This document shows, in pieces, positions 2,689-52,196 of a DNA stretch of 64,000 nucleotides. Position numbers and translations under genes: made by a program. This DNA is from Sulfurisphaera javensis (GTDB lineage: Archaea; Thermoproteota; Thermoprotei_A; Sulfolobales; Sulfolobaceae). The stretch spans positions 1,364,001 to 1,428,000 of the forward strand of contig NZ_AP031322.1 in assembly GCF_041154675.1 (NCBI RefSeq). The letters run 5' to 3'. Each line of letters opens with the position of its first letter. Positions within the stretch are counted from its first letter, which is position 1. Below the pieces are notes generated by a model. It did not search any database. It was not told the DNA's origin and saw only the letters and a list, made by a program, of their open reading frames with translations.

Positions 2689-2693
2689 GGTGA
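2689..2693 (+). promoter_or_regulatory. GGTGA ribosome binding site that fixes an ATT start at 2700
   Basis: GGTGA lies exactly 6 nt before ATT 2700. The same motif and spacing occurs before ordinary ATG starts in this window at 13722, 34047 and 46560. An in-frame TGA at 2691-2693 forbids an earlier start. Confidence 0.55.
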
Positions 2694-2699
2694 ATCAAC

Positions 2700-3584
2700 A
2701 TTAAATTAGCAGTTATACATGAATCTCAGAAAATTACTGAATCAGCAAAGCAGCTTTTATTAGAAATTAAGAATAGTGGGCACACTCCTATTTATGTAAG
2801 AATATCTAGACTTAATCCAGTAATATCTAAGGATGGCCTAGAATTTAATTATGGTGGTAAGAAAATTGAATTAGACGGAGGTATAGTTAGAAATTTAGGT
2901 TTTATTTCTTCTACGGAACAGTTAATGAAAAGATTTGATTCTTTAAAAGGGTTAGAAAGTAATGGAATAACACTTATCAACTCTCCAGATTCTATGTTTA
3001 TAGCTAGAGACAAGTTCAATAGTCTCATGAAATTAAAAATGGCGAAAATTCCAGTTCCAGATACTACTGTAGTAGAAGATCCATTTGAGGTAATGAGACT
3101 AGTAAACGAATGGAAAGATGTAGTTATTAAACCTGTCATTGGTAGTTTAGGATTAGGTTCTGTTAGGGTTTCTGATCCAGATGTAGCGTTTAGAGTAGCA
3201 AAAGCAATTTTATCGGTTAATCAACCAGTTTATGTTCAGAAATATATTAATAAACCAGAGAGAGATATAAGAGTTTTCGTTGTAGGTACTACTGTACTAG
3301 GAAGCATATATAGGGTTAATAGATCCTCATGGAAGACAAACGTTGCACAGGGCTCATTGACACAAGTGCTTTTACCCAATGAAGAACTTCAAGAGATTTC
3401 TTTGAAAGTAGTTAAAGCATTAAAGCTAGATTATGCTGGAATTGATATAGTTGAAGACGAAGATGGTAGTTATAAGGTTATCGAAGTAAATGCGGCTCCT
3501 CTTTGGAAAGGTTTCTATGAGGCTACACACATAAATCCAGCAAAATATATAGTTGAGCATCTTATTAGAAAGATAAAGAAATGA
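2700..3584 (+). CDS. ATP-grasp ligase of the RimK/LysX type with a probable ATT start
   Basis: The protein has the ATP-grasp order: an N-terminal [10 protein letters not shown] strand-helix, substrate-domain segments ([19 protein letters not shown] cut at [15 protein letters not shown]), the central [17 protein letters not shown] phosphate loop, [19 protein letters not shown], and the metal-binding end [24 protein letters not shown]. These ligases couple carboxylates to amines through an acyl phosphate. The first ATG is only at 2925, which would delete 75 residues of good N-terminal fold; no GTG or TTG exists between the TGA at 2691 and 2925. The ATT at 2700 with GGTGA 6 nt upstream is therefore the best start (294 codons). 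The amino-acid or cofactor substrate is not evident; LysX, ArgX or a RimK-like role are all possible. Confidence 0.8.
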
Positions 3585-50535: not shown

Positions 50536-51183
50536 TTATAAATCTTTGCTTAAAACTTGTTCAATTATTTGCTTCGCTATTTTCAGTTTGTTTTTCTTTA
50601 TCCAGCTTGCAGGTAAATTTTGTTTATAATAAGGTTTAGAATATCTTCCTACAATACCCGAAGTAAAATCCATCCCATAAAGGTGAATTTCCTTTGCATC
50701 AAATAATAATGCTATAATTACAGCCCTATCTCCATCAGTAAATCCACCAAATAAATGTAATTTTCCAAATGGATATACTTGTACTGAACCGATAACTTTG
50801 CTCATGTAATTGATCTTATATAATTTATCAATATTGTTTCCATGAGCATGAACCACATATATGGAATCTCTCGGGTAAACATTTATTCCATCCAAATCTG
50901 TTATTACAATGTCTGGAGAGATACCTTTCTCAAAAAGATAATTTGTAGCACCATCAGCTGATATTATAATATCTTCATTTAATTCGTTTATCTCTTCTAT
51001 ATTCGGACCAGCACCAATAATTGCAACTTTTTTATTTCTGATTATATTTAACTCTTCAACTAAATCATCTTTAAGTTTCATGTTTAATAATAAAGCCGAA
51101 TAGTAGTCATCTTTTTCAGAATATCCAAAAATTCCTCTAATTTTCGAATATAGATTTAACCAGTAGAAAGGATCTTGAAATAT
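50536..51183 (-). CDS. 6-hydroxymethylpterin pyrophosphokinase MptE-like (DUF115), probable ATA start
   Basis: The core [64 protein letters not shown] and LYGMDF is that of archaeal MptE, which makes 6-hydroxymethyl-dihydropterin pyrophosphate. The first ATG (51081) gives 181 residues, but the frame upstream continues with [19 protein letters not shown], matching the DUF115 N-terminus. No ATG, GTG or TTG exists there; ATA 51183 has GGTGA exactly 6 nt upstream, giving 215 residues. It overlaps the small gene upstream by 28 nt. PTPS (52719) and the DHPS-like gene are pathway neighbours. Confidence 0.82.
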
Positions 51184-51350
51184 ATTATATCACCTTCATC
51201 TTTGATTATATTTATTTTAAAATTTTCTTTTATATACTGAAAAAAGGGATTATTTTTAGATATTTTATATATTATTCTTTCATTTGGAAACAAAGCATCA
51301 ATAACGTCAGATCCACAAATGTCCTTATCCAAATCAACTATGAAACTCAT
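51156..51350 (-). CDS. Small protein of unknown function
   Basis: About 64 residues from ATG 51350 (the frame also opens at GTG 51359): [20 protein letters not shown] and strands [16 protein letters not shown]. The Cys near the N-terminus and alpha-beta plan recall small TusA-like sulfur carriers, but the CPxP motif is absent. It overlaps the HEPN gene (17 nt) and mptE (28 nt), so it is tightly embedded in the operon. No family recognised. Confidence 0.6.
51190..51194 (-). promoter_or_regulatory. GGTGA ribosome binding site for the ATA start of mptE
   Basis: GGTGA (complement of 51190-51194) is 6 nt before ATA 51183 and lies inside the upstream gene. An in-frame TGA at 51192-51190 rules out an earlier start. 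Confidence 0.55.
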
Positions 51351-51741
51351 CAAATACACTATTAGCTAGTTCAAATATTTCTTCTAATTCCTTAATTAAT
51401 CCCTTTGCTTCAAAATTCCTTATGAGTACACTATCTTTAAAAGACGCTTCATCAATTAAGGTTAATGGGTAAAGTCTCTGTTCAAGAAGTTGTAATTTTC
51501 TTACAAGAGTAAGTTCTTTTTCAGATAATTTATATAGAATAATGTTTAATCTCTGAGCATTATGAGGAGAAATTGAATAAAATCCATAAAGAGCTAGAAT
51601 AGCTTTACTTAAATTTTCTATGAAAGAATACGCATTATCTATGGTTCCTAAAAGGTCACCTTCTTCTAATGAACTCTTAGCTTGTTTAAGTAATCTGAAT
51701 GATTTACTCAAATATTCAGAAGCTAATGCACTATTATTCAT
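51334..51741 (-). CDS. HEPN-domain protein without the RNase motif
   Basis: A 135-residue all-helical protein of HEPN type: ALASEYLSKSFRLLKQAKSS, AYSFIENLSKAILALYGF (the buried helix), and a long C-terminal helix ([20 protein letters not shown]). The catalytic R-x4-6-H of HEPN ribonucleases is missing. It overlaps the nucleotidyltransferase-like gene by 4 nt. MNT/HEPN pairs are usually toxin-antitoxin units; this one looks catalytically dead and lies in a metabolic operon. Confidence 0.72.
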   Translation of the reverse strand: MNNSALASEYLSKSFRLLKQAKSSLEEGDLLGTIDNAYSFIENLSKAILALYGFYSISPHNAQRLNIILYKLSEKELTLVRKLQLLEQRLYPLTLIDEASFKDSVLIRNFEAKGLIKELEEIFELANSVFDEFHS

Positions 51742-52196
51742 ACTTCTATCACTTCTCCTTTATTAATATCTGCTATTTTAACTACTCCACTTACTATTTG
51801 AGCGTTTATCTTTTTTCTTTCGTTTTCTATTATTTTTTCTCTATCGAATAATATCTTACCTTTGCTTAATAAATAAAGAATAATAGGATTATGAAATTCA
51901 ATTTCGGTAGGATCTATAACTATGAAGTACAAAAGAGGTCGATGTCCATACTTTTTAACGTACTCAAAATAAACGTCAGTTGGTTCGATTTTCTTAGTAA
52001 AATATTCAGCTATTTCTTGTCTTGCATAGAACGAGATTTTATGTGTCTTATCTAAAACAACTAAGACAAGAAGTGGTTTTTCCTCATCTAATGAATCTAT
52101 TGCCTCTCCTCCAATAACAATTCCCTTTAGTATATTTCCATAGTGCAAAAGAGTTCCTTCAGCATACTCTTCAATAATGCTTAACAAAGACTTCAT
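51738..52196 (-). CDS. Degenerate minimal nucleotidyltransferase (MNT-like)
   Basis: A 152-residue alpha-beta protein. The position of the nucleotidyltransferase signature reads GIVIGGEAIDSLDEEKPLLV instead of GS-x(9-13)-D-x-D, so the metal-binding Asp pair is lost; a third-strand region (YFIVIDPTEIEFHNPIILYL) remains. Paired with the HEPN gene by a 4-nt overlap. It is the first gene of the 52196-48738 operon, divergent from 52229 with only 32 bp between. Confidence 0.65.
   Translation of the reverse strand: MKSLLSIIEEYAEGTLLHYGNILKGIVIGGEAIDSLDEEKPLLVLVVLDKTHKISFYARQEIAEYFTKKIEPTDVYFEYVKKYGHRPLLYFIVIDPTEIEFHNPIILYLLSKGKILFDREKIIENERKKINAQIVSGVVKIADINKGEVIEV

Follow-up and report, generated by a model that had tools for sequence, protein, structure and literature searches.

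An AUA Codon at Shine-Dalgarno Distance as the Probable Start of an MptE-Like Gene, and Related Candidate Near-Cognate Start Sites across the Sulfolobaceae

Results

The window analyzed here is a 64,000-nucleotide stretch of a 2.57-Mb archaeal genome (labeled G000), that of Sulfurisphaera javensis. Its minus strand carries an MptE-like coding sequence (archaeal HPPK, PF01973) that comprises 215 codons (50536..51183) when read from an ATA codon at 51181..51183. The assignment relies on a structural match and on the Pfam family (E value of 2.3e-24; 86.5 bits compared to a gathering score of 34.6), although the Pfam match starts only at residue 43. A Shine-Dalgarno (SD) sequence, GGTGA, is found on the same strand at 51190..51194, separated from the ATA by the 6-nt spacer TATAAT (51184..51189). 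Since the 3′ end of the 16S rRNA could be read directly as GGCTGGATCACCTCA, to which this site is complementary, GGTGA represents a perfect SD core. The SD lies inside a small upstream open reading frame (ORF) of about 64 residues (51156..51350, minus strand; ATG at 51350 and stop at 51158-51156), where it is read as GGT GAT (Gly-Asp), and the last 28 nt of this ORF also belong to MptE, read in a different frame. The in-frame upstream stop of MptE is the TGA at 51192-51190, i.e., the last three bases of GGTGA, and the frame then continues as TAT AAT ATA TTT CAA GAT, with only TAT and AAT between the stop and the ATA. No ATG, GTG, or TTG occurs in the MptE frame between this TGA and position 51081, and the first canonical start is the ATG at 51079..51081 (minus strand), 34 codons downstream of the ATA. 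The coordinates given in the original prediction, including the ATA at 51183 and the GGTGA 6 nt upstream within the preceding gene, were all exact, and its claim that only a nonstandard codon could open this frame after the TGA was confirmed. The same gene string also contains, immediately before the small ORF and MptE, a HEPN-domain protein (51334..51741, minus strand; PF05168, E value of 1.2e-5) and a 152-residue protein, which overlap each other by 4 nt and span 51334-52196 of the window on the minus strand.

The 34 codons preceding the ATG at 51081 had been proposed to belong to MptE. This was borne out by the orthologues and by a solved enzyme, but not by the Pfam model, whose match begins beyond the extension. 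Orthologues lacking the segment, which would have spoken against the proposal, were absent from the family: the extension is present, along with an SD-like site, in 31/31 Sulfolobaceae genomes searched. Over the 22 codons that lie past the usual stop of the upstream gene, pN/pS was 0.38 in the MptE frame but 1.13 and 1.25 in the alternative frames, and pairwise differences fell mostly on third codon positions (0.37, 0.29, and 0.64 for the first, second, and third positions, respectively). The substitution pattern thus points to purifying selection that acts on the extension in the MptE frame and in neither of the others. An alignment of 25 orthologues shows no variation at Arg16 and Asp26, and Tyr12, which lies outside the upstream gene and upstream of the ATGs found in Saccharolobus-like genomes, is nearly invariant. 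An AlphaFold2 model places two helices in the extension (residues 5-19 and 23-36; pLDDT of about 95-97), and its residues 2-213 superimpose on Methanocaldococcus jannaschii HPPK (PDB 8SBU) with a Z-score of 25.6 (1.6 Å, 190 aligned residues, 42% identity). By this model, MptE has the fold of the solved archaeal enzyme, N-terminal helices included, and it is a putative 6-hydroxymethyl-dihydropterin pyrophosphokinase. Starting at the ATG at 51081 would leave the protein without helix 5-19 and with only a small part of helix 23-36. In outgroup families of the same order, a canonical MptE start precedes the same conserved Trp by 5 to 9 codons, which argues that the ancestral N terminus lies where the ATA is found.

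The codon located 6 nt after the SD-like site of MptE was then tallied in the 31 family genomes and was ATA in 14, TTA in 13, ATT in 2, and another codon in 2. ATA, TTA, or ATT thus occupies this position in 29/31 genomes, the two exceptions (L025 and L027) belonging to one genus. ATA and TTA together account for 27/31, a near-constancy due in part to the upstream gene that overlaps this position, in which the “TA” forms part of the Tyr codon of the EGDxIYFxI (GDxIYF) motif. Where this Tyr is replaced by Leu (L012), the MptE codon is ATT, and in G004 (L024), where a different gene lies upstream, it is TTG. The small upstream ORF is otherwise kept before MptE in all Sulfolobaceae examined, with only its last residues being read in the distant genome G013. 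A rule allowing one mismatch to AUG holds for FEN-1 (29/29) and SucD (25/25) but fails for the MptE orthologues, with TTA in 13 and other codons in 2 of 31. UUA is mismatched at the first base, as UUG is, and also at the third, as AUA is; because of these two mismatches to the CAU anticodon, the exact start codon is uncertain in the 13 TTA species. All seven Saccharolobus-like genomes also carry a TTG or ATG 8 or 13 codons downstream. Initiation at UUA is plausible, yet it is the least certain part of the proposal.

The original prediction also pointed to a second, independent case in the window, and this too proved real. An MptN-like/RimK-family glutamate ligase is encoded on the plus strand (2700..3584) by a frame of 294 codons read from an ATT at 2700, with a GGTGA 6 nt upstream (2689..2693, plus strand). 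A canonical start is absent for 75 codons, the first ATG being at 2925. Its best NCBIfam model is MptN, which it matches below the cutoff, whereas the RimK subfamily model is matched above its cutoff. Among 30 genomes, the codon is ATT in 19 and ATA in 3; the remaining 8 have TTG, located at the same codon in 2 of them and one codon farther upstream in the other 6. No conserved gene overlapping this start was found among the family genomes compared. By their best family models, both window cases fall in pterin biosynthesis, which may be a coincidence.

The search for near-cognate codons after GGTGA-N6 that had been suggested as a check gave a signal in a wider survey but not from the motif alone in the window. 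In the window, the eight GGTGA-N6-ATH sites do not represent a significant enrichment (5.0 ± 2.4 expected). Two of the eight begin frames as long as 215 and 294 codons, with no canonical start in the first 34 and 75 codons, respectively, while the other six open frames of at most 29 codons. The survey covered 1.66 Mb of sampled stretches from three genomes and considered ORFs that have the TGA of a GGTGA as their upstream stop and no canonical start in their first 10 codons. Near-cognates were found at GGTGA+6 in 11/20 such ORFs, compared to 81/546 ORFs that follow any other stop (P = 5.7e-5) and 24/140 at other offsets (P = 5e-4), both P values being somewhat optimistic since some of the 20 ORFs are orthologues (the MptN-like gene was counted in three genomes). 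Six nucleotides is also the commonest spacing between GGTGA and canonical starts in the host genome (14/31).

Noncanonical codons 6 nt after a strong SD, originally proposed for two genes of the window, were found in at least five gene families and are conserved across Sulfolobaceae, although the proposed restriction to AUU and AUA was too narrow given the TTA in 13/31 MptE orthologues and the ACG in SucD. In the gene for the DNA-repair enzyme FEN-1 (L131:16349-17416, plus strand, and L183-L211), the codon for the universal Met of the Met-Gly-Val N terminus is ATA in 25, ATC in 3, and ATT in 1 of the 29 family genomes (29/29) and is preceded by AGGTGA-N6 or a close variant, whereas the same codon in other families is ATG in 10, GTG in 5, and TTG in 6 genomes (21/21). 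Read from the Met at GGTGA+6, the predicted FEN-1 N terminus would be (M)GVDLGEIVEDVKR. The ATA overlaps the TAG of the upstream gene, such that an ATG there would read through. In the Sulfolobus acidocaldarius-like genomes (L195 and L197), the ATA is kept without an upstream overlap. Chain 2izo in the PDB (Saccharolobus solfataricus FEN-1) starts only with residue 6-7 of the full-length enzyme, without Met-Gly-Val, and the solved construct may therefore be truncated.

In SucD, the codon at GGTGA+6 (or at a close GGTGA variant) is ACG in 25/25 family genomes (L213-L237). It sits within the C-terminal GDALRS* of SucC, and the outgroups (5/5) have an ATG two codons earlier. Two SucD frames of one genus, in L217 (G019) and L220 (G011), contain one in-frame stop each (TGA and TAA, respectively) and are otherwise about 80% identical. 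In a 217-codon family (L064), the codon at GGTGA+6 is ATA, ATT, or CTG in some species and TTG or ATG in others, with no conserved overlapping upstream gene. A TorD-like protein has ATA in G016 and ATG at the same codon in four sisters (86 to 98% identical); the same GAGGTGA-N6 precedes the codon in G016 and its sisters, with GGTGG in one. SD sites formed by Gly-Asp codons of the preceding gene are a recurrent feature.

Several candidates were set aside. The ATT at GGTGA+6 of TruD is ambiguous, several species having ATG, GTG, or TTG two codons later. An ATA case in G017 (L182:8427-9515, plus strand) was dropped, since relatives have a single ORF of 540 to 620 codons here and it thus appears to be a fragment of a split gene. 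A carbamoyltransferase frame (L052:5671-7311, minus strand) and a 4Fe-4S (ferredoxin-like) frame (L069:564-1286, minus strand) lack canonical starts for 145 and 157 codons, respectively, and neither has a correctly placed SD, so both are possibly broken genes. The former is missing the first 50 profile positions and is perhaps frameshifted; just upstream of the latter, GGAGGTG is followed by an in-frame TAG.

Discussion

The absence of canonical starts, the conservation of the extension, the position of the SD, and the codon tallies across the family point to initiation at the codon 6 nt after GGTGA. We estimate a probability of roughly 85% that MptE is translated from the SD-placed AUA at 51183 and that this is one case of family-wide near-cognate starts in Sulfolobaceae. 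The 30S subunit would be positioned by pairing of GGUGA with the 16S 3′ end (...GAUCACCUCA), and the 6-nt spacer would bring the AUA into the P site. Met-tRNAi (anticodon CAU) would then pair imperfectly with AUA, and MptE would begin with methionine. Sulfolobaceae would likewise tolerate AUA, AUU, AUC, ACG, and CUG at exactly GGTGA+6, often retaining them family-wide. aIF1 has been reported to destabilize non-AUG complexes in S. solfataricus (work cited in PMC6237735). A strong SD may offset this check; alternatively, the check itself may serve as a throttle, and any regulatory role could, for example, act through aIF1.

Could MptE instead begin at the canonical ATG at 51081, and its relatives at their own downstream ATG, GTG, or TTG, with the 34 codons left untranslated? 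This is the first canonical codon and the expected choice of gene finders, but we consider it extremely unlikely. The extension is conserved as protein, with its invariant Arg16 and Asp26, and belongs to the fold of the solved enzyme; the downstream canonical codons vary between species, and in genome L018, the first one falls at the nucleotide-binding GAGPS motif, 53 codons into the protein. A programmed −1 frameshift, in which ribosomes slip from the small upstream gene into MptE within the 28-nt overlap, would need no start codon at all. The overlap exists in nearly all family genomes, and a −1 event is documented for a Sulfolobus alpha-fucosidase (PMC8211752). Nonetheless, inspection of the overlap, e.g., GAT ATA ATA TAT TTC AAG, revealed no slippery heptamer (X XXY YYZ), the outgroup MptE is not fused and has its own start near the conserved Trp, the N terminus of the solved enzyme starts here, and G004 has another gene upstream and a TTG available. 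Slippage, which would also leave FEN-1 and the MptN-like gene unexplained, is very improbable. Only a little less remote is termination-reinitiation at an NTN codon by the upstream stop (TTA, TTG, ATA, or CTG, immediately after the conserved Trp) rather than at GGTGA+6. This codon overlaps the upstream stop and is T-centered in all genomes, and Haloferax provides proven cases of such coupling (PMC6728339). On the other hand, in L012, L016, L018, L019, and L025, whose upstream stop lies elsewhere, this codon reads CTC or ATC; no SD stands at a normal distance from it, whereas GGTGA+6 corresponds to the spacing preferred by the genome, and the outgroup MptE starts upstream of the Trp.

A more serious alternative keeps the AUA start but makes it usable only through coupling, the terminating ribosome being held by the SD. 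The starts of MptE, SucD, TruD, and most FEN-1 genes do lie within the upstream gene, whose Gly-Asp/Glu codons (GGT-GAN) provide the SD. For these starts, a return to ATG would be hard because of this location; in MptE, such a mutation would damage the neighbor, since the “TA” belongs to its Tyr codon. The original prediction had likewise named coupling as an enabling factor, but this part found no support in that form: the MptN-like gene (ATT or ATA in 22 genomes), the L064 family, and FEN-1 of the S. acidocaldarius-like genomes have these starts without a conserved overlap. Coupling is therefore common but not required, and we regard a strict dependence on it as unlikely, though less so than the three preceding alternatives.

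The best reading of the data is that start codon identity is relaxed at sites set by SD spacing and that this arrangement is conserved across Sulfolobaceae. In a bolder version, SD distance alone would set starts in the family, with any T-centered or near-fitting codon at GGTGA+6, UUA included, being read by the initiator tRNA, and essential genes such as FEN-1 would have retained noncanonical starts from the family ancestor onward, possibly as a deliberate throttle sensed by aIF1. We hold this version to be somewhat doubtful, if worth entertaining.

If the family keeps such starts, gene finders will truncate or misplace the MptE, FEN-1, and SucD proteins. These genes would also represent natural test cases for start codon checking by the archaeal (eukaryote-like) initiation complex, setting a strong SD against aIF1 proofreading. 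The cases occur in culturable, genetically tractable Sulfolobales, so direct testing is possible.

Among known systems, the Escherichia coli infC gene, encoding IF3, starts with AUU, a codon tied to IF3 autoregulation, and similar rare non-AUG starts exist in bacteria. Like the starts described here, infC has an AT-H start codon that is kept by selection and preceded by a good SD. However, it is a bacterial gene under IF3 autoregulation, whereas the present cases are archaeal, affect unrelated genes across a whole family, and extend to ACG and probably UUA. In archaea, AUG, GUG, and UUG are the start codons given in a review (PMC7531240). SD-led initiation on internal cistrons agrees with this accepted practice, but AUA, AUU, AUC, ACG, and UUA fall outside the accepted set. 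A 2021 review limits the noncanonical events demonstrated in archaea to elongation and termination (PMC8211752), and in our search of the open-licence literature, no paper described AUA, AUU, or ACG as start codons in Sulfolobales. Elsewhere, reconstructed AUG-to-AUU switches in prokaryotes amount to 1 in 61,358 (PMC5622118), and in Methanosarcina mazei, about 5% of the unannotated small ORFs listed from ribosome profiling start with CTG (PMC11456600). Termination-reinitiation in Haloferax (PMC6728339) shares with our cases the placement of the second start at the end of the preceding gene, whose coding sequence contains the SD, but it involves ATGA or TGATG overlaps and ordinary start codons, whereas the overlaps seen here vary and are absent in some cases. 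The M. jannaschii MptE/HPPK (PDB 8SD5 and 8SBU) has, like MptE here, the same fold with N-terminal helices (Z-score of 25); the solved protein carries its own N terminus, the comparison made here being one of structure. Near-cognate initiation as such is thus already known, and what sets the Sulfolobaceae cases apart is the depth of their conservation and the genes involved.
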